Virus record (IMG/VR): IMGVR_UViG_3300033150_000421
Span: 1 to 37,945 of that record
Strand: one strand, 5' to 3'
From: a virus
Length of the DNA: 37,945 nucleotides
Every line of letters begins with the position of its first letter. Position 1 is the first letter of the stretch. Positions 19,801 to 29,169 of the stretch are shown here, in pieces. The position numbers and the translations under genes are program-made. The notes beneath the pieces are model-generated. The model made no database searches, was not told the origin of the DNA, and saw nothing but the letters and a program-made list of their open reading frames with translations.

Positions 19801-19817
19801 GTTGAATGGCTAGATTT
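19781..19817 (-). promoter_or_regulatory. Hairpin that holds the start codon of the 1363-residue gene
   Basis: Outer arms AAATCTAG / CTAGATTT (19810-19817 and 19781-19788) and inner arms GCCAT / ATGGC (19806-19810 and 19796-19800). The ATG is part of the inner stem, and the stop codon of the upstream gene touches the outer arm. Ribosomes finishing the upstream gene would open it. Confidence 0.7.
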
Positions 19818-21015
19818 AACCAGGTAGCCAGCTGGGGTTTTGAAATAATGGTTGTTTTTCTTCAGTAGATGAACCATATCCCATTGGAAGTCTTAAATTT
19901 CCCCTTGAGTCAACCTGTATCTGTCCTGCAATCGGAGTAAGTCCAGGCAGTTCCTGTGCTAATGGCAGAATTTGCTGCATGTTCTGTTTTATCTGGTTAA
20001 TGGTAGTGCTGTTGTTTATTGCCCACTGTTGTAGTGCTGAGTATCGATCTCTTGCGTCTTGCTCAACTTGATCAAGTTGATTTTGTGCTTGAGTAAGGAT
20101 ATCTCTTGAAAGATTAGCCAAGTCTGTTGATTTACCCTGTTCACCCCGACCTATTGCTTGTCTAATCTGATTCTGTGCATTAAAAAACCAGTCTGCAATT
20201 TGCCCTATTTTCTGATCTCTTTCAAACTCTAAATTCCTAATTTCTGAATCATAAATGTTTTTGAGATTTGTTTCTCTTGCATCTATTTCTTTCATTATAT
20301 CTGCCCCCTGTCGCACAATATCACCTCTTTGGCGTGATCCCATTTTGGTTAAAGCGTATGAATACTGATTAGCTGCTGAAGAATCTCCCGCACCCATTGA
20401 ACCGAGCATTATATTCCCCGTCCTAAACATATTTCTAATGTTTGAGGTTAAATCCCTTAGTGTCCTGGCTTGATTTGATTGTGTTCTTTCTCTCTGTGTT
20501 CCAAGTAAATTTTTTCCTTGCTGAAGTTGTGTTTCTAATACATTTTGTCCTTGTGTATATTGGCTTCTTGCAATATCTTCTTGTGCGGTTCTTTGAGAAG
20601 GAAGTCCCTGATTGAGCATGTCGTTTAGACTGTTAATATAAGCATCCCAACCTGAAGAAATTTCACCTCTTAGTTGTGCGTATTGATCAGTTGTTCCACC
20701 CCCGTCACCACTCTGTCCCGTTGGCGGAACTCCTCCACCCGTTGGAGCTGGTGGGGGATTGTTATTGGTGATATTACTGGTGTTATCACCGGGTACTGGG
20801 GCACTGACATACGGAGAACGAGTGAAATAATCAGTAATACCATTATCATTCGTTTGTCCAGCGGGAAGCTCTGCTGCGTTTGCTTCAGAAACCCCAAATT
20901 CTCGTAATCCCATTAGATTTCCAGCTATTCCAGCACCACCTCTCCAAAGATTTTCCCACCCACCGCTGGTGGCCCTACTTACATCTCTTACTATATCTCC
21001 CCAATTTATTGCCAT
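19816..21015 (-). CDS. Internal virion-like coiled-coil protein
   Basis: 399 residues from the ATG at 21013-21015, which follows a terminator T-run by six bases. Layout: an N-terminal region ending in a Pro/Gly/Asn-rich linker (about 70-115, NNNPPPAPTGGGVPPTG), then a long Gln-rich helical region about 120-350 (QNVLETQLQQGKNLLGTQRE, ARDRYSALQQWAINNS). Long helical Gln-rich proteins directly ahead of the large ejection protein are typical of podovirus internal proteins. No enzyme motif. No Shine-Dalgarno; context ATTAAAATGGCA. Confidence 0.6.
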   Translation of the reverse strand: MAINWGDIVRDVSRATSGGWENLWRGGAGIAGNLMGLREFGVSEANAAELPAGQTNDNGITDYFTRSPYVSAPVPGDNTSNITNNNPPPAPTGGGVPPTGQSGDGGGTTDQYAQLRGEISSGWDAYINSLNDMLNQGLPSQRTAQEDIARSQYTQGQNVLETQLQQGKNLLGTQRERTQSNQARTLRDLTSNIRNMFRTGNIMLGSMGAGDSSAANQYSYALTKMGSRQRGDIVRQGADIMKEIDARETNLKNIYDSEIRNLEFERDQKIGQIADWFFNAQNQIRQAIGRGEQGKSTDLANLSRDILTQAQNQLDQVEQDARDRYSALQQWAINNSTTINQIKQNMQQILPLAQELPGLTPIAGQIQVDSRGNLRLPMGYGSSTEEKQPLFQNPSWLPG

Positions 21016-21021
21016 TTTAAT

Positions 21022-21051
21022 AAAAAAATCCCCACGCAAAATTGCGTGAGG
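21022..21051 (-). terminator. Strong intrinsic terminator at the end of the glycan cassette
   Basis: Nine-pair stem CCTCACGCA-ATTT-TGCGTGGGG followed by A and seven T (21022-21028). It ends transcripts of the cassette and is also directly upstream of the 399-residue virion gene, whose ATG is six bases beyond the T-run. Confidence 0.9.
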
Positions 21052-21081
21052 TGCGAACGTCACCTTGTCCGTCGATGACCT

Positions 21082-23223
21082 CTATCCTACTATACCATTA
21101 TTTTTTGGGTTGTCAAGTACTTCTCGGAAGAAGTCTGCGTAATCCTGTATGTGTGAATCTATTTGCCAATTCTTTTCCACTGTTTTAAATGCATTTTCTC
21201 CCATTGTTTTTCGTAGTTTTTTGTCCTCAATTAACTTTTTTATTGCTTTATACCAACCATTAGCTCTTTCTGCTAAGAAGCCATTTTCTCCGTGATTAAC
21301 TACACTTTGGTATTGACGAATATCTTGCCACACTCCAGGTTTCTTTGCGCTTCCACTTTCCAGAAACTTAATTGAACTTTTGGCTCGGTTATACACATTT
21401 ACTTCAAGAGGAGCTACAATAATATCCGCTTCGTCCATGTATCCGGGGAATTTATTCTTAATCCACTTATATACATCTTGGTGTCCAAAACCGTGTTCAT
21501 ACCTCCTTCCCCATTTGTTTTTGAATTTAGGTATAAACGCACCTATTGTTTTTAAAGTAACATTGGGGTATTCTTTGAAGATTTTATCAATTCCATCCTC
21601 GAATTCTTTATTCTGGAGTGAAATGAAATGGGTTGTCGAATTACCACTCCACATACATTTACCATTTCTTCTTACATATAAAGTATGGTTTGGAACTTCA
21701 ACGTCATAAATTTTTCCTTTATAGTTTTTCTTAAATTGATGTTTTGGAAAGACTTTTGTTCTAAGACAATTCTTTTTACCTGTATTTCTTAAAAAAGCGA
21801 CTGTATAACAAGGTTTTTGTCTGCTTTTAGGGATAAATCTACCTTCAATTATTGTATCTCTCTTTTTTTTCTTATAGAAGTTTGCTGACCAGCCTATTTT
21901 AAGTGCAATCTCTGTTAAATCGTCAACGAGCTTTTTTGAAGTAGTTGTTGCTCTTATCCTTCCATTTTTATCAATATTACCATCCCCAATTAAATACCAA
22001 TCTAATAGTATTTTTAATTGTCTTGGCGATAATTTCTTAATTTCTTTTGGTATATACTTTTCACTTGCACCCCCAAGTGGCCTCAAATATTTCCATAACC
22101 GCTTATTAAATATTCTTAATTGTCCTCTATCATCTCGTTTAACATTAAACCCCGCACAAGTCATTGCTGTATCTAGAACATCTAATTCTTTTGTGTCTTT
22201 TTTTTGAACAACCCCAACTTGCATACAATTAGTTAAGTTTCCCGATTTTTGCTTAAATTTATTCTTTGTAATCCAACCCTCAGCTAACCAAAACCCCAAG
22301 AACTTTAACCAATCATCCATAAATATCTTCCGAGAGCCTAGCCAAAAGAATTTTTTCTCTTTTCCCCGCCAATAGGCGTTCTTTTTAATTCTAAAACGTT
22401 TTTTATAAATGTTACTTGCTATATTTATTTTGTAGTTTTTGTCGTCAAACGTTCCAGTGTAAAGTTGATGATTGGGAGTAACTGCATAATTAACTTGTAA
22501 TCCTTCAGCGCACACCAACTTTCCATTATAAGAATACTCCATATAGTTTGTTGGTTTTTGGTATTCCAACTCTCCTGTTCTATTAAGAGTTGCAACCTTT
22601 TCGTTTTTATCTAAATCCTTAAATAACTTGAACCCATTTTCTGTCAGAATTTCAGTTTTGTCATCAAAACATCCAAAATGCAACAACCGTATATTTCCAT
22701 CATCTTTAAACTTTGATCTGTGATTATATAGTTTGAAATCAATATAGTTGGGGAATATCTTAATTTTGTCATGCGTCTTGCGTGTATTGTGAGTAATAAC
22801 GTGTTTGAGATATAAATTGGTTGTAGTCATATAATCCACCTCATTACACATAGAGGTATAGTTATTTAATGCTTCACTTCCCTTGTGGTAAACCTTGTAA
22901 GCGGAATTATCCTTCATAATGTTCCACAAGGAATCATCCAAATCAAAAATAATCTTTCTTCCATACTTTCTAGCCATAGCCCCCATTGCCGCAAAAGCCC
23001 AAGCATTACCTATGTAATTAAGATAAATAATATCATGCTCCTTAGCCACGGTTAACCAGTCCATTCTGGCTACATCTTTGTGTATATCAAATATATCAAC
23101 TTTAAAACCTGGAAGTTTGTTTAAGTGTTGCATGGGCTGGATTATTCTAACCATATCAACCCCCGAAGTTCTATCAACCGTTTGGTGGCTTGGAAGCGCA
23201 AAAATACGAATAGGTTTTTTCAT
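21082..23223 (-). CDS. Glycosyltransferase (GT4-like, GT-B fold) interrupted by an intein
   Basis: 713 residues as translated, about 369 after splicing. Extein: an N-terminal GT-B half with IIFDLDDSLW (91-100), then RLLHFG (179-184) joined to STTHFISLQ (529 on). The C-terminal half has ADIIVAPLEVNVYNRAKSSI (599-618), KFLESGSAKKPGVW and HGENGFLAE, the donor-binding E...E region of GT4 enzymes. The intein is residues 185-528, inside the conserved G-S-x-T-H loop between the two halves. The enzyme would add a sugar from an activated nucleotide donor. It is the last gene of the glycan cassette. The start overlaps the upstream stop (AAATGA). Confidence 0.9.
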   Translation of the reverse strand: MKKPIRIFALPSHQTVDRTSGVDMVRIIQPMQHLNKLPGFKVDIFDIHKDVARMDWLTVAKEHDIIYLNYIGNAWAFAAMGAMARKYGRKIIFDLDDSLWNIMKDNSAYKVYHKGSEALNNYTSMCNEVDYMTTTNLYLKHVITHNTRKTHDKIKIFPNYIDFKLYNHRSKFKDDGNIRLLHFGCFDDKTEILTENGFKLFKDLDKNEKVATLNRTGELEYQKPTNYMEYSYNGKLVCAEGLQVNYAVTPNHQLYTGTFDDKNYKINIASNIYKKRFRIKKNAYWRGKEKKFFWLGSRKIFMDDWLKFLGFWLAEGWITKNKFKQKSGNLTNCMQVGVVQKKDTKELDVLDTAMTCAGFNVKRDDRGQLRIFNKRLWKYLRPLGGASEKYIPKEIKKLSPRQLKILLDWYLIGDGNIDKNGRIRATTTSKKLVDDLTEIALKIGWSANFYKKKKRDTIIEGRFIPKSRQKPCYTVAFLRNTGKKNCLRTKVFPKHQFKKNYKGKIYDVEVPNHTLYVRRNGKCMWSGNSTTHFISLQNKEFEDGIDKIFKEYPNVTLKTIGAFIPKFKNKWGRRYEHGFGHQDVYKWIKNKFPGYMDEADIIVAPLEVNVYNRAKSSIKFLESGSAKKPGVWQDIRQYQSVVNHGENGFLAERANGWYKAIKKLIEDKKLRKTMGENAFKTVEKNWQIDSHIQDYADFFREVLDNPKNNGIVG
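21089..21116 (-). promoter_or_regulatory. Late promoter overlapping the end of the glycosyltransferase gene
   Basis: -35 TTGACA at 21111-21116, 16-base spacer, -10 TATAGT at 21089-21094. RNA would start near 21081 and run into the terminator at 21022-21051 before the virion gene at 21015. Same promoter-terminator-gene order as at 15.6 and 36.4 kb. Confidence 0.65.
21640..22671 (-). other. Intein with LAGLIDADG-type homing endonuclease
   Basis: Residues 185-528 of the glycosyltransferase. Block A starts with Cys185 (CFDDKTEILTENG). Block B contains AVTPNHQLY (Thr249, His252). Two DOD endonuclease helices follow, LGFWLAEGW near 309-317 and LLDWYLIGDG near 406-415. Block F is YDVEVPNHTLYV, and block G ends in Ser-Gly-Asn528 with Ser529 as the +1 nucleophile. 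The penultimate His of many inteins is replaced by Gly, which is tolerated in some. Both acidic endonuclease residues (Glu315, Asp414) are present, so homing may still be active. Confidence 0.93.
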
Positions 23224-23972
23224 TTTTGGGTTAATTCTATAAAAGTGTCGATTTTCTTATCCATTAGCTTAACCATATCCTTATAATGCTCCCTAAACGC
23301 CCCTGAGTCTAATCTAACATCCTTTTCATCCTTAAAGGTGAAACCATTCATTCCGGGTTCATATTTCTTTAAATCGTCTTTGGTGAGGTTTCCATAGTAT
23401 TTCACTTTACAACCACAAAGCCTTGCAATATCGTACATTGCTGATAATCTGTCATATCCATATAGTGTATGGCACTTGTTAAGTAAGTCTGCTAATCCTT
23501 TTTGATCTTTGGCTATCTCCCTATCAATCTTAATGGCGTTTTCGGGGTGTTTGAATTGATCATTTCCTTTTCCAACTAAATAACAGGTTTTTTTGCGTTT
23601 CTTGCCGTAATCCTTAAATAAATGAAGGTTTAAAATAGGAAGAAACATTAAGTGGTCTTCGTCAACACCGAGAGTGTTATATACCTCTGAAAATACAAAT
23701 ATCTTGTCTGTCTTAGGAAATTCCTTTGGTCCCAGCCTACCATATAAAGCCATTACGCCAGGGGTTTGTAAAACATACCTAACCACCGTATCTGCACCCG
23801 CAGGGTTTCCCGTATAAATCTCGGGATAAACTGCTATAAATGGAGTTTCATATTTAGCGTTTAAATAAGCCACCTGCCCCTTAACTAAGAGCCAAGCATA
23901 TAACCCATACATAACACGTATGCCTCCAGATGTAACCTCAAACGGTGGTGTCATGATCGAATATGGTTTCAT
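23220..23972 (-). CDS. Probable glycosyltransferase, GT-B-like N-terminal domain
   Basis: 250 residues. The start (SIMTPPFEVTSGGIRVMYGL) has the glycine loop that opens many GT4-like enzymes (P...SGG..V...L). Other segments: PEIYTGNPAGADTVVRYVLQ, then KIFVFSEVYNTLG, KTCYLVGKGN and CHTLYGYDRLSAMYDIARLC. It is short for a two-domain GT-B enzyme and lacks an obvious E...E donor motif, so either the donor domain is reduced or the enzyme is divergent. Coupled to both neighbours by four-base overlaps inside the glycan cassette. Confidence 0.6.
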   Translation of the reverse strand: MKPYSIMTPPFEVTSGGIRVMYGLYAWLLVKGQVAYLNAKYETPFIAVYPEIYTGNPAGADTVVRYVLQTPGVMALYGRLGPKEFPKTDKIFVFSEVYNTLGVDEDHLMFLPILNLHLFKDYGKKRKKTCYLVGKGNDQFKHPENAIKIDREIAKDQKGLADLLNKCHTLYGYDRLSAMYDIARLCGCKVKYYGNLTKDDLKKYEPGMNGFTFKDEKDVRLDSGAFREHYKDMVKLMDKKIDTFIELTQK

Positions 23973-24712
23973 ACTCCTTTTATTTTAAAACTTTTCCCTT
24001 TACTAGATACATAATTCATATATCGTATTACTTCGGCATCAAACCCCAACCTTTCATACTGGAGTTTGGGGAAATCCCCGCCTTTGGCCCAATGGTAAGC
24101 AAATACCTGTTCTTTACGGCACATCACTTTCTTGCTCTCCAGGTAAAACTCTCCTTCTCGGTTTAATGATTTACAACCATAATAATCCTTCTTTTCATCA
24201 AATAATTTCTTTTTCATCTTTTGGATTTCAGGATCGTTTTTCCAAATAAGTGAAAGTATATCGTTTTCTTTACACACATACTTTTCCGCTTTAGAATTCT
24301 CCCTCTCCCAAATATCCCAAAATTTAGGATTTCTTGAGGCTACTAACCCAGCCTGAACATATTCTTTTTCCGTTACATTCTCAACTGTTCTATTCTCATA
24401 GTCGTTAAAGTTTGTGGCAACTCCAACTTCGTAGTCGTTCTTTAACACCGCCTCAAGCCTATCAAGAATTACTGTATCTGCGTCGATTCCAACCACCAAG
24501 TCGTATTTATCGGTTAGCAGTTTTGCGAATGTTGGTCTTGCGTTATAAAAGTTAAGATTATGTTTATTAAATACATCGTTTATCACGTCATCCCTGAATA
24601 CAAACAAATCAATATCCGGGTGGAAACGTAAAAAGCTGTTTATAAACTTAGGCGTTCCAACAGGATAATAATAACTATCTGAAACCACTGTAAAAAAGGC
24701 TACTTTTTTCAT
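23969..24712 (-). CDS. GT-A-fold glycosyltransferase with DxD motif
   Basis: 247 residues. An N-terminal Rossmann-like part (KKVAFFTVVSDSYYYPVG) and the metal-binding DxD in VVGIDADTVIL (Asp77, Asp79). VGVATNFNDYENR and EYVQAGLVASRNPKFWDIWE (acceptor side) follow, then AYHWAKGG near the C-terminus with a His in the position used for metal binding in GT8-like enzymes. It would transfer a sugar from an NDP donor with Mn or Mg. Overlaps its neighbours by four bases. Confidence 0.75.
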   Translation of the reverse strand: MKKVAFFTVVSDSYYYPVGTPKFINSFLRFHPDIDLFVFRDDVINDVFNKHNLNFYNARPTFAKLLTDKYDLVVGIDADTVILDRLEAVLKNDYEVGVATNFNDYENRTVENVTEKEYVQAGLVASRNPKFWDIWERENSKAEKYVCKENDILSLIWKNDPEIQKMKKKLFDEKKDYYGCKSLNREGEFYLESKKVMCRKEQVFAYHWAKGGDFPKLQYERLGFDAEVIRYMNYVSSKGKSFKIKGV

Positions 24713-25365
24713 GGACGAGTGAATAAGACTATTATAGCTGAACTTTCATACCTCCTTGCTTCAAACCCCAAACCAATCATGTGTTTAACTAATTTTTGCC
24801 AATCTGGAAAGTGAAACTCAATCTCAATGGCTTTAATTTTGTCTGCCACTTTCTTAAATCCTTCACTTGTTAAAATCAATTCTTCTGCACCCTCAACGTC
24901 AAATTTCATAAAGTCAACCTCTTTGATTTTGTTTTTCTCAAAAAAGGTGTCCATAGCCATTGTTTTTACTTGCTCACCACCCTGTTTGTAATCATTTACT
25001 AGGGAATGGCACGTTCTATTGTCATTTAATGTATGAAGTGTCATTTCTCCATCTTTGTCGGCTATTGCTAGTTTAAATACTTCTACATTATCCCACTTGT
25101 TAAATTCTTTATTCTTTTTAAGAGCTTCGAAGTGTTCGGTTGAAGGTTCTATGGCATATAGTTTCTTAGCGTATTCTCTCATGTATTGAGTAACTATACC
25201 TATATTAGCGCCTATATCCACAACAACCATATCTTTCTTATTATTGAACATATCCACATACACTCCATCAAAATAAATCTCTTTATATATGTAAGGTATA
25301 AAGAGTTCCTCAAACTTAATGGGTTTTTTCTTTGTTCCTTTTGGATAAAATAATGCTCCTAACAT
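24709..25365 (-). CDS. FkbM-family SAM-dependent methyltransferase
   Basis: 218 residues from the ATG at 25363-25365, which has GGGGTGAT upstream; the in-frame GTG at 25374 is less likely. Motif I is VVVDIGANIGIV (48-58), acidic loop AIEPSTEHFEALKKN, then NVEVFKLAIADKDGEMTLHT and VDFMKFDVEGAEELIL. The last is diagnostic of FkbM proteins, which O-methylate sugars and other polyketide or glycan hydroxyls. In this cassette it most likely methylates a sugar of the glycan made by the neighbouring glycosyltransferases. Confidence 0.9.
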   Translation of the reverse strand: MLGALFYPKGTKKKPIKFEELFIPYIYKEIYFDGVYVDMFNNKKDMVVVDIGANIGIVTQYMREYAKKLYAIEPSTEHFEALKKNKEFNKWDNVEVFKLAIADKDGEMTLHTLNDNRTCHSLVNDYKQGGEQVKTMAMDTFFEKNKIKEVDFMKFDVEGAEELILTSEGFKKVADKIKAIEIEFHFPDWQKLVKHMIGLGFEARRYESSAIIVLFTRP

Positions 25366-25370
25366 AAAAA

Positions 25371-25913
25371 TCACCCCAATTCTTTTATATCACTAATTTG
25401 TATATGATTATCTGCTTTCCCCCAACTCCAACTTAAATCTTCTTGTCGCCATGATTCGCCATAATAACGTTTTAACCATTCAATTCTGTAATTGGGTACA
25501 TAAAATTTATAACCCTTATAATTGATTTGTTGGAGTTTCTTTAGATGTTTGGCATCCCACTTTAAATAATGACCCATACCCATATATTCTACTCTCTCGT
25601 TTTTGTACTTCCTAAATTTACCTAATAAGGAAAAGTATCCCCCTTCCCAAAAACTCTCTTTCTGATTACCGAAAATAATATAATTACCTTTTGATTCAAC
25701 CATGTTAAAATCCCTTCTTATTTTCTTTCCCATTTCTTCTGTAAATTGTTCATACCGGCAACCAACATTGATTTCTCTGTCAAACTGGTGTCTGTTCTTG
25801 TATTCGCCGGTTCTCACTATTTGCAAAAGAGTTGATCCAATTAAAAAGGTAGTTAAACCCATGCTCTTAAAGTATTCTGTTGTGTTTATTAAATGTTGTT
25901 CTATTTTTGTCAT
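25371..25913 (-). CDS. LicD-like nucleotidyltransferase-fold protein
   Basis: 180 residues. TTFLIGSTLLQIVRTGEY is a Gly-Ser loop like that in LicD proteins, followed by an acidic RHQFDREINVG. Near the C-terminus PNYRIEWLKRYYGESWR matches the P...WL...YG..W ending of LicD-type enzymes. LicD proteins transfer phosphocholine or other phospho-alcohols from a CDP donor to glycans. A cytidylyltransferase gene sits directly upstream (four-base overlap), which supports that role. The acidic motif is not canonical, so the assignment is moderate. Confidence 0.55.
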   Translation of the reverse strand: MTKIEQHLINTTEYFKSMGLTTFLIGSTLLQIVRTGEYKNRHQFDREINVGCRYEQFTEEMGKKIRRDFNMVESKGNYIIFGNQKESFWEGGYFSLLGKFRKYKNERVEYMGMGHYLKWDAKHLKKLQQINYKGYKFYVPNYRIEWLKRYYGESWRQEDLSWSWGKADNHIQISDIKELG

Positions 25914-26293
25914 TTTCTTAAACTTGTTGACGAAATCCCCTCTGTATATGGAAAATACACAAACAACACCTCCTTTAACTCGCTCTCATATTTGTTCCAA
26001 TCTTTATTATTAAACCAATCATCCCCTACAAATACAACATCAAATTTCAACTTCTTCCATTCCCGTCGCTTGTCCGTGGTAGTTTGAGGTATAGCTAAAT
26101 CCACATATTTAATATTTCTCACAATTTCTATTCTTTGTTCAAAAGGAATTTTACATTTCTTGCCTTTTTCTTTTACAAGTTTGTCGGTTGAAACACCCAC
26201 CATTAGTTTGTCGCACATGGCTTTAGCATTTCTCAATATATTAAGATGTCCGATATGAAACAGATCGAACACGCCTGTCGTATAGCCTACCAT
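25910..26293 (-). CDS. Glycerol-3-phosphate cytidylyltransferase-like enzyme (CDP-alcohol synthesis)
   Basis: 127 residues, the normal length of TagD/GCT-type enzymes. Signature motifs: GVFDLFHIGHLNIL with HxGH at 13-16, GVSTDKLVKEKGKKC, PFEQRIEIV, and YTEGISSTSLR at the end, the counterpart of RTEGISTT. It activates a phospho-alcohol (glycerol phosphate, or a related polyol phosphate) with CTP. The product probably feeds the LicD-like transferase encoded next. Shine-Dalgarno AAGGAG lies in the end of the preceding gene. Confidence 0.85.
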   Translation of the reverse strand: MVGYTTGVFDLFHIGHLNILRNAKAMCDKLMVGVSTDKLVKEKGKKCKIPFEQRIEIVRNIKYVDLAIPQTTTDKRREWKKLKFDVVFVGDDWFNNKDWNKYESELKEVLFVYFPYTEGISSTSLRK

Positions 26294-27120
26294 CCTATCT
26301 CCTTATTAAGTAATAAAAACTCTCTAGTATCCCAAGGAACGGGGAAACCTATCTTATCCCTATAAACAACATCTTTGGGGAGATATTTAACTGCTATTTC
26401 CTTTAGAATGGGTTTGTCTATCTTTTGCCCCATTGGGGCTTCCCACATCATTTGAGGTATTCCATTTTCTAAGTAAGGAAATACTACTTCCATATTAGCC
26501 GAATTACAGGCATTTTTTGCTCTATCTATTAGTGCCGGTGTATGGGTTTCTAACAAGAATCTATACATTCCCCACTCTTTCCACTTCTCAAAAGGTATTT
26601 CGTCAAATGTCGGTATCTGTAAGTATCTGTTTCTAAATGTTTGTTCATCTTTCATAAAATTCCCCGTAAGAAGTTCTGTATATCCACCAAACAATCCATC
26701 AGCTCCCTCTCCCGAAATAATTGTATTAAATCCATCTTCTTTGGCCTGAAGTGCCATTAAGTAAAGACATGGTTCGTTGGGGTGGAGTCCATCACCTTTT
26801 TGTTTTATTAGATATTCTATTGTAGAAAGGTACCTCTCCCTACTTATAAATACTGGGGTTAATTGAATGTGCAGGTGGTTTGCGACTTTTCTTGCCCATT
26901 CATACTCATTCTCTTGTCCTAATACTGCTACATAAGCCATCTGGGGTTTGTTGATAGCAGCCAATAAAGAACTATCTAATCCACCGCTTAAAAAAATAGA
27001 ATCCCCATCGGTCTTGAGTTTCTTTTCAATCTCACTAGGAACAACTCTTTTTACCTTTTTGTTATATTTAATCGGAACTCTATAGTTCGTTTTTGTATAT
27101 CTAAAAGCTAAATAATCCAT
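26287..27120 (-). CDS. Asparagine-synthetase-like ATP-pyrophosphatase domain protein
   Basis: 277 residues. The C-terminal synthetase domain of AsnB only: PP-loop FLSGGLDSSLLAAI (SGGLDSS at 45-51), ATP-binding second motif ISGEGADGLFGGY (136-147). The glutamine amidotransferase half is absent, so it must take nitrogen from ammonia or a partner, or adenylate another carboxylate. In glycan clusters such proteins amidate sugar acids or similar groups. Context in this cassette supports a glycan modification role; the true substrate is unknown. Confidence 0.8.
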   Translation of the reverse strand: MDYLAFRYTKTNYRVPIKYNKKVKRVVPSEIEKKLKTDGDSIFLSGGLDSSLLAAINKPQMAYVAVLGQENEYEWARKVANHLHIQLTPVFISRERYLSTIEYLIKQKGDGLHPNEPCLYLMALQAKEDGFNTIISGEGADGLFGGYTELLTGNFMKDEQTFRNRYLQIPTFDEIPFEKWKEWGMYRFLLETHTPALIDRAKNACNSANMEVVFPYLENGIPQMMWEAPMGQKIDKPILKEIAVKYLPKDVVYRDKIGFPVPWDTREFLLLNKEIGW

Positions 27121-27121
27121 T

Positions 27122-27289
27122 TCACAAATCTTCTACTAAAACTCTAATTCTTGCTATTTTATTCTTGTGCAAATCACTTCCCAATGCTTGTTCTGCCAAT
27201 TCAAGAATACCCGCATCATCTCTACCCGTTCTTGGAAGTAATAAAGATTTTAATTCTTTTATCACGTCTTTCTTGCTTTTCCTTGCCAT
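27122..27289 (-). CDS. 55-residue helical hypothetical protein
   Basis: MARKSKKDVIKELKSLLLPR, then TGRDDAGILELAEQALGSDL and a basic end. Probably three helices. A strong Shine-Dalgarno AGGAGGGGGTGA at the end of the transketolase gene precedes it. Not recognised. It lies between the transketolase and Asn-synthetase-like genes, so it may assist one of them. Confidence 0.65.
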   Translation of the reverse strand: MARKSKKDVIKELKSLLLPRTGRDDAGILELAEQALGSDLHKNKIARIRVLVEDL

Positions 27290-27294
27290 GTTAA

Positions 27295-27795
27295 TCACCC
27301 CCTCCTAAGATGTAAAAAACTTGGTTTGTTGTTTTTTACTAATTTGTTTATTATAGCAGGTAATTCTTCTTTTTTCTTCGGACAAAACTGTTGTATATTT
27401 GGCCACCTACTAATAACCGTGTTGTAGTGTTCACCCGACCAATGTGTAAACCCATCTTCTAGGTAATCTTTGCCCACACCCGCACCAACCAACTTAACAG
27501 GTATATTTTCATGACCTAAGTAGTTCTTAATCCACTCTACGGGGCGGTAAAGAAGAAATGGTGTGATACTGTAAACAAACGGTATTTTATCTTCTAGGGC
27601 TAATCCCACTCCAATTCCAAGCATTGCCTGTTCACTAGCTCCACAGTTTATTGTTCTATCGGGGAAATCTTCAAAATGTGAATCAAACATCTTATATCCA
27701 AGATCAGCTGTTACAAGCCATATATCCTCGTTCCCTTCCATCTGTTTGTGTAATTCGTAAGCAAACCACCCACGAATTGAATTATGTTTTTTCAT
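27295..27795 (-). CDS. Transketolase C-terminal subunit (pyrimidine-binding domain)
   Basis: 166 residues. DIWLVTADLGYKMFDSHFED, then INCGASEQAMLGIGVGLAL with the catalytic Glu55 that activates the thiamine aminopyrimidine, then PFVYSITPFLLYRPVEWI. Only this domain and part of the linker are present; the third transketolase domain is missing. It pairs with the N-terminal subunit just upstream (four-base overlap). Split transketolases occur in sugar-nucleotide gene clusters, where they move two-carbon units between sugars. Confidence 0.85.
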   Translation of the reverse strand: MKKHNSIRGWFAYELHKQMEGNEDIWLVTADLGYKMFDSHFEDFPDRTINCGASEQAMLGIGVGLALEDKIPFVYSITPFLLYRPVEWIKNYLGHENIPVKLVGAGVGKDYLEDGFTHWSGEHYNTVISRWPNIQQFCPKKKEELPAIINKLVKNNKPSFLHLRRG

Positions 27796-28406
27796 TTCAT
27801 TATCTCCTCGTATTGTTCTTTATTCATAACCACATAATGTCCCCGAACCCCCTGTAGCCAGTCGGGAAAGTCAAACAAATCTGTCTTAACCACCAATGAA
27901 GGGTAAAAGAACTGTAATCTGGTGTCTAAGAGGTCTGCGTTTGCTTTCCCCAGAGCTGTATAACCATTGGCATTACAAGTAATCCTTAAATTTTCCAATC
28001 TTAGCTCGGATGCTATCCTAAGTGCTTCCCAGACAGACCCCTCCGCACACTCCCCATCACTAATTAAAACATAACACAATCTATTACGATTGGCCAATGC
28101 CATACCTATTGCAACCGTTAATCCCATTCCAAGCGATCCAGTAGAACACCAGATACCATCTTTTATATCTCGGTTGGGGTGTGTACCATGTTTCTTGAAT
28201 AATTTTTCGGCGTCTTTTCCTTCATATTTTTCTAAAACCACATACAGCGCCAATCCCGCATGCCCATTACTTAAAATAAATGGCTCGTTCTTCTTCTTAA
28301 CCTTATATATAGCATCTATCAAATTCACCGAAGTCAAACAAGAACTAAGGTGTGATAGCTTTAGTTTATAACTAATCTCAATTATTCTTTTTTGTAGTTG
28401 ATTCAT
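27792..28406 (-). CDS. Transketolase N-terminal subunit (thiamine-diphosphate-binding)
   Basis: 204 residues. PFILSNGHAGLALYVVLEKY (NGH, His49), WCSTGSLGMGLTVAIGMALA, and the ThDP motif ISDGECAEGSVWEALR ending in CNANGY (Asp117 ... Asn145/147). The usual GDG is SDG here. With the C-terminal subunit it makes a complete active site. The gene overlaps the epimerase gene by 29 bases. The sugar it acts on cannot be told from sequence. Confidence 0.85.
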   Translation of the reverse strand: MNQLQKRIIEISYKLKLSHLSSCLTSVNLIDAIYKVKKKNEPFILSNGHAGLALYVVLEKYEGKDAEKLFKKHGTHPNRDIKDGIWCSTGSLGMGLTVAIGMALANRNRLCYVLISDGECAEGSVWEALRIASELRLENLRITCNANGYTALGKANADLLDTRLQFFYPSLVVKTDLFDFPDWLQGVRGHYVVMNKEQYEEIMK

Positions 28407-29169
28407 ATTCTTTTACCATTTCCTGTATCGACTGTTCAAGCGTCTTGCGCGGCAACCACCCATAACCCCTTGCTTTGTAGTTCAATGAAACCCATTTATT
28501 TGTGTCATAATCTCTCATTTTATCCACAACGTTGATGTTTGCTTTCTTGCCCGTAACTTCTTGAATAATATCTAGTATTGTTTGGTTCGATACTTGTTTG
28601 CCCGTTCCCAATTCAAAAATTCCCCTAGCTGAACGTGAGGATAAGTTAATAATCCCGTCAACCACATCAGACACATCAATAAAATCATGTGCGGGTTCGG
28701 GTACAAAGTTTACTAATTCATTCTCCATGCAGGAACGGATTAAAGTTGGAATCAAATGTTCTTTCTGTTCTCCTACACCTGTGATTGAAAAAGGTCTTAT
28801 TATGCAAACAGGAAGATTGTATTTTTCCATATAGGATAATAGAATTTCTTCTGCCGCCTTTTTGCTTCTTGAATACATTGTTTGTCTTGGCAATCTAACC
28901 GAAGAAGTGCTAATAAACACAAAAGACTTAAAATCCCTCTCCATCGTTTCAAGAATGTGAATTAAATCCAATATGTTTGCTTGAAGTATTTTCTTGTCAT
29001 CATCGTGGAATGACATGTTGCCGTAAGTAGAAAGAAAAAAGAACCTCTCAAAAGGCTTTAACTTGATTGTTTTAATCTTTTCGTGGGGAATAGTAACAAA
29101 CTCATCCAACCTTTCTGTGAGGTGTTTTCCTATAAATCCTGACGCTCCTGTAATATAAGCCTTTTCCAT
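28378..29169 (-). CDS. NAD-dependent epimerase / reductase (extended SDR)
   Basis: 263 residues. Rossmann motif ITGASGFIG (6-14), serine region FISTSS near 85-90, catalytic YSRSKK (Tyr99, Lys103), then PVCIIRPFSITGVG, AHDFIDVSDVVDGI and GIFELGTGKQVSN. This is the usual order of NDP-sugar epimerases, dehydratases and reductases. It is the first gene of the cassette. The ATG is nine bases after the -10 of a dedicated promoter (29179-29207), so the mRNA is nearly leaderless. Confidence 0.85.
   Translation of the reverse strand: MEKAYITGASGFIGKHLTERLDEFVTIPHEKIKTIKLKPFERFFFLSTYGNMSFHDDDKKILQANILDLIHILETMERDFKSFVFISTSSVRLPRQTMYSRSKKAAEEILLSYMEKYNLPVCIIRPFSITGVGEQKEHLIPTLIRSCMENELVNFVPEPAHDFIDVSDVVDGIINLSSRSARGIFELGTGKQVSNQTILDIIQEVTGKKANINVVDKMRDYDTNKWVSLNYKARGYGWLPRKTLEQSIQEMVKEYESTTKKNN

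Follow-up and report, generated by a model that had tools for sequence, protein, structure and literature searches.

A class 1 LAGLIDADG intein in a conserved loop of a phage GT4-like glycosyltransferase, and its relatives in viral contigs

Class 1 LAGLIDADG inteins of solved structure, such as the TliVMA intein (7qsu), PI-PfuI and PI-SceI, combine a Hedgehog/intein (HINT) fold with an inserted two-motif LAGLIDADG endonuclease, and carry Cys1, a TxxH motif, a terminal Asn and Ser+1. Inteins are usually described in proteins that handle DNA, and are expected in conserved sites (PMC2814812). In a survey of mycobacteriophages every phage intein host binds nucleic acid, and the same work describes a class 1 intein with a penultimate Gly, in the recombination directionality factor gp51 of mycobacteriophage Bethlehem, that was shown to splice (PMC5050341). 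Two further phage inteins, in the thymidylate synthase of corynephage P1201 and the large terminase of Gordonia phage GMA6, have hosts acting on nucleotides or DNA. A glycan-pathway host is known from cellular archaea, the haloarchaeal UDP-glucose 6-dehydrogenase (PMC4071816).

The viral DNA analysed here, a stretch of 37,945 nt referred to as the window, carries a full-length LAGLIDADG intein of class 1 as an in-frame insertion in a phage glycosyltransferase with a GT4-like GT-B fold (Table 1). It has the fold, the two-motif endonuclease and the four splicing features of the solved inteins but differs from them in its glycosyltransferase host, in sequence (only 9–21% identity) and in having Gly for the penultimate His. 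The P1201 and GMA6 inteins are members of the same family (27–28% identical over the whole intein), and that of P1201 also ends in WSGN/S (the slash marks the splice junction), but their insertion sites differ from that of the window. The likeness to the Bethlehem intein, which has an unlike host, is one of features. The haloarchaeal intein shares a glycan-pathway host, although in that case an oxidoreductase of a cellular organism rather than a phage glycosyltransferase.

Table 1. Features of the intein-bearing glycosyltransferase gene and adjacent cassette (window coordinates)
Feature	Position	Strand	Basis
Glycosyltransferase precursor gene, 713 aa	21082..23223	-	ORF; Pfam Glycos_transf_1 / Glyco_trans_1_4
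N-extein, 184 aa, ending ...LLHFG	22672..23223	-	Aligned to intein-free L001
Intein, 344 aa, C1 to N344	21640..22671	-	Sequence, homologues, structure model
C-extein, 185 aa, starting STTHF, including stop codon	21082..21639	-	Pfam; alignment with L001
Cys1 codon, first splicing nucleophile, block A	22669..22671	-	Invariant in 18/18 GT-loop inteins
Block B, TPNH	22468..22479	-	T65 and H68 invariant in 18/18 GT-loop inteins
First LAGLIDADG motif, LKFLGFWLAEG, acidic residue E131	22276..22308	-	D or E in 18/18
Second LAGLIDADG motif, LLDWYLIGDG, acidic residue D230	21979..22008	-	Asp in 17/18; Pfam LAGLIDADG_3
Blocks F and G, YKGKIYDVEVPNHTLYVRRNGKCMWSGN, penultimate Gly, terminal Asn	21640..21723	-	Alignment of relatives
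Ser+1 codon, acceptor nucleophile	21637..21639	-	Ser also in intein-free homologues
Cassette, probably for glycan synthesis or modification: FkbM methyltransferase, cytidylyltransferase, asparagine synthase, transketolase, epimerase, unassigned genes	23220..29169	-	Pfam

The first-pass annotation had placed an intein between HFG and STTHF, and mapping of residues C185–N528 of the ORF reproduces its ends to the base. The splice junctions of the precursor read ...LLHFG/CFDDKTEIL and ...CMWSGN/STTHFISL. Pfam assigns glycosyltransferase domains to the C-terminal flank and, above its cut-off, LAGLIDADG_3 to the insert; the NCBIfam intein_Nterm match begins exactly at residue 185 but scores below its cut-off (14.3 bits versus 24.5). 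By tblastn, the ORF matched 167 records of annotated phages, and the matches listed cover only residues ~179–559, the intein; annotated hosts among them are the P1201 thymidylate synthase, the GMA6 large terminase and mycobacteriophage nucleotidyltransferases. A search of the 37,945 nt window gave a single match, with no further intein of this family.

The joined, spliced sequence of 369 aa was used as the query against viral contigs, and a profile search then added more homologues. The closest intein-free enzyme (L001; 363 aa, 73% identical) reads LLHFGSTTHF without interruption and lies in a contig of similar gene order. With eight more from the profile search, nine related phage contigs carry an uninterrupted enzyme, in which the sequences flanking the insert are exactly rejoined, and this rules out a normal domain of the enzyme. 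In two other contigs (L002 and L015) the same junction (HFG/C...GN/STTHF) is occupied by inteins that share 76% and 64% identity with that of the window, which rules out a chance or misread junction. The site is occupied in three of the 12 distinct members of the window enzyme family recovered by a degenerate-pattern search, a proportion that is not a population frequency.

Residues C1, T65, H68 and N344 are invariant in the 18 aligned inteins inserted in this loop (GT-loop inteins), and Ser+1 follows. All splicing blocks had been reported as visible; blocks A, B and F and the terminal Asn are indeed present, but the penultimate His of block G, which is usual and not obligatory, is replaced by Gly343 in the window and in all 34 aligned relatives. 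By every other sequence and structure criterion applied, the insert is an intein. A mycobacteriophage intein with penultimate Gly splices, a change of this Gly to His having slowed the reaction, and the block F His may substitute for the missing residue, as discussed in the same study (PMC5050341). Both endonuclease motifs described in the first-pass annotation are present with their acidic residues, as in LAGLIDADG homing endonucleases. An AlphaFold2 model of the intein built from 34 sequences (mean pLDDT 94.8) has its best PDB matches in TliVMA, PI-PfuI and PI-SceI, i.e., in the HINT fold; together with the conserved residues, this suggests that the window intein splices. Between the window and L002 inteins the endonuclease part is 77% identical and the N-terminal splicing part 68%, so that constraint on the endonuclease is no weaker, as one would expect of an enzyme that remains functional.

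The missing His and the sub-threshold intein_Nterm match could also be read as signs of a dead, non-splicing intein remnant or of an ordinary part of the enzyme. The second version is already refuted by the clean absence of the insert from nine homologues. Taken as one explanation the two are scarcely credible, as related domains occur in terminases, thymidylate synthase and other proteins, the nucleophiles are retained in 18/18 GT-loop inteins, the reading frame is intact and under purifying selection, and the modelled fold matches whole inteins.

The identification of the host as a glycosyltransferase was borne out by Pfam domains above cut-off and by a model of the L001 enzyme (pLDDT 88.9), which has a GT-B fold and matches the GT4-type enzymes HepE, PglA, MshA and BshA. 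In this model the insertion point directly follows strand 181–186, taken as the first strand of the C-terminal domain in a GT4-like fold, which would put the loop on the donor side, where it had been placed previously. In GT-B enzymes the sugar donor is bound by the C-terminal domain. Three residues are invariant in the nine intein-free homologues, namely the G and S on either side of the insertion point and the H three positions past that S, so that splicing would rejoin a conserved G-S-x-T-H loop, as first described; by low entropy the six-residue window at the site ranks 26 of 358. A conserved loop at the insertion point matches the published expectation for intein sites (PMC2814812).

In the extein tree the window enzyme pairs with the intein-free L001 (bootstrap 100, SH-aLRT 98), and a single clade of the three intein-bearing enzymes (window, L002, L015) is rejected (AU p = 0.0024). 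Between the window and L002, the intein is more alike (76%) than the exteins (60%) or the other compared genes (25–64%), and dN is lower for the intein (0.17) than for the extein (0.30); saturation of synonymous sites precluded dating of the transfer. This incongruence and the excess likeness to L002 fit the spread by homing that had been proposed for the element, and sequence and phylogeny make cleavage of the empty site by the homing endonuclease most likely. In favour of an intein that was instead ancestral, inherited vertically and precisely deleted in L001 and others, with an endonuclease no longer driving spread, intein and extein distances are correlated across the GT-loop clade (Mantel rho 0.47, 0/2000 permutations). 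The window and L015 inteins (64% identical) are also no more alike than the other genes of these contigs (58–76%), and together these two results indicate that vertical descent also contributes. As the full account, vertical inheritance with losses is nevertheless improbable, since some orderings need nine precise losses, each restoring the invariant loop; the intein is more alike than the extein in 144 of 153 pairs among the 18 clade members, and more than every other compared gene between the window and L002; and the endonuclease residues are conserved. All intein-bearing loci of the window clade are on metagenomic contigs.

The element is thus very probably a splicing and homing class 1 LAGLIDADG intein in a donor-side G-S loop, a member of a lineage of GT-loop inteins, and mainly self-propagating. 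The precursor would be translated as 713 aa, and Cys1, the TPNH of block B, the block F His, the terminal Asn and the Ser+1 acceptor would excise the insert and ligate HFG to STTHF, giving the 369 aa enzyme. The encoded endonuclease would cut the corresponding DNA in the intein-free allele of a co-infecting phage, allowing the element to be copied in. In the sets searched, the lineage is confined to the G-S loop of phage-type glycosyltransferases and would have spread among enzymes down to ~20% identical; its main role may be self-propagation at a site from which it is hard to lose. The first-pass annotation had also speculated that the glycan enzyme is conditional on splicing, for which the analysis gave no supporting evidence. 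A post-translational switch of this kind, making the glycosyltransferase dependent on a signal, has precedents in other inteins, such as that of DnaB (PMC7360933), and an insertion in the donor-side loop probably leaves the unspliced precursor inactive. It is nonetheless very improbable here, as close relatives do without the intein, its distribution is sporadic, no regulation-specific feature was found, and penultimate Gly is tied to fast splicing in the single phage intein tested (PMC5050341).

Intein profile searches of viral contigs and cellular genomes recovered ~150 non-identical relatives. A tree of 152 inteins (quick search) unites those in the G-S loop in one clade (SH-aLRT 100), consisting of the window, L002, L015, L016, L017, L018, L025, L135, L136, L137, L139, L141, L142, L143, L144, L145, L146, L147, L151, L153 (with copies L155 and L156) and L177. 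They are carried by ~20 distinct viral-contig glycosyltransferases, often only 20–30% identical. The host groups led by L018, L017, L016, L146 and L135 match the intein-free window family with profile probabilities of 99.5–100. Pfam supports some hosts strongly and others to a lesser degree or not at all (L137, L153), and hosts without such support were assigned by profile alignment or the shared loop. Insertion is at the same residue as in the window in L135, and two columns later in L018, L017, L016 and L146, an offset that assumes a gapless alignment of the short loop and could be one if a gap is allowed. A single change of register is probable, as the inteins inserted at the same residue (window, L002, L015, L135) group in a subclade (94). 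For the second register, phage phi92 (WAGGASHEPDL) and LR756501 (GGGISHMVDL) provide empty alleles.

None of the 33 intein loci found in cellular genomes lies at a G-S glycosyltransferase junction. Among the tblastn matches listed for the window precursor and L144, isolated or named phages have solely empty glycosyltransferases or inteins within other genes, and none has an intein in this enzyme. Three records with flank-overlapping matches (Lak-A1, LR756508 and SRB7757) have other hosts and were rejected as occupied homologues.

The broader reading, which we favour by a little, is that homing regularly targets phage glycosyltransferases, a pattern not recognised before: one lineage would have specialised on the G-S donor-side loop and moved between ~20–30% identical enzymes, its register shifting by two residues once, and the L151 enzyme would be shared with a second intein. 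If so, phage glycan cassettes would rank with terminases as hubs for the exchange of inteins. In the L151 glycosyltransferase (L151:3473-6940) two apparent inteins are seen, one in the G-S loop and one at NHCK/C...HN/SQLKVIE, within a conserved N-x-x-K-S motif (Pfam Intein_splicing, 56 bits).

Against the literature the host is unusual, as first noted, but it is not unique, given the ~20 viral-contig enzymes and the haloarchaeal UDP-glucose 6-dehydrogenase, an earlier glycan-pathway intein host (PMC4071816). In the open-access literature, searches found no phage glycosyltransferase described as carrying an intein; what appears new is the host niche, while the mechanism is ordinary. A lineage dedicated to glycosyltransferases broadens the picture of inteins as residents of DNA-handling proteins and pinpoints a conserved target inside variable glycan cassettes. 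The natural pairs of the window or L002 with L001 are suited to the study of homing between related phages. In annotation, an overlooked intein makes such genes resemble split or oversized enzymes.

Other relatives of the intein occur in NDP-sugar epimerases (L035, L163, L109), a radical SAM protein (L043), an aminotransferase (L191) and a GTP cyclohydrolase (L190), a variety that points to a loose tie to DNA metabolism among these sequences, a set selected by similarity that does not amount to a census. The epimerase inteins (L035:2570-4594, L163:3461-6391 and L109:3-1505) are in NAD-dependent epimerase genes of two viral contigs and one Micrarchaeota contig. In the B12-binding radical SAM protein of the viral contig L043 (3398-5953), the intein is immediately followed by the cluster motif CxxxCxxC (SRGCPFSCAYCD). 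A different glycosyltransferase-like protein (L021:6925-9021), with no Pfam glycosyltransferase match, has an intein at FQW/TERKNP, possibly in an equivalent loop; it was rejected as a clade member because the intein falls elsewhere in the tree and the extein fails to align with the window family.

The gene order of the cassette next to the window glycosyltransferase is partly retained in L001, L002 and L015, and these neighbouring genes suggest a role of the host enzyme in surface glycans. Directly after the glycosyltransferase gene is a terminator-like hairpin with a T run (21030-21051, minus strand), which overlaps the listed start of ORF 19816-21063; that ORF probably begins further inside, at the ATG that opens MAINWGD. 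Just upstream of the intein-free glycosyltransferase of L001 (L001:4908-6001) are a methyltransferase-like gene and a gene resembling adenine-specific DNA methyltransferase, a pair missing from the window, so that this edge of the cassette is variable.
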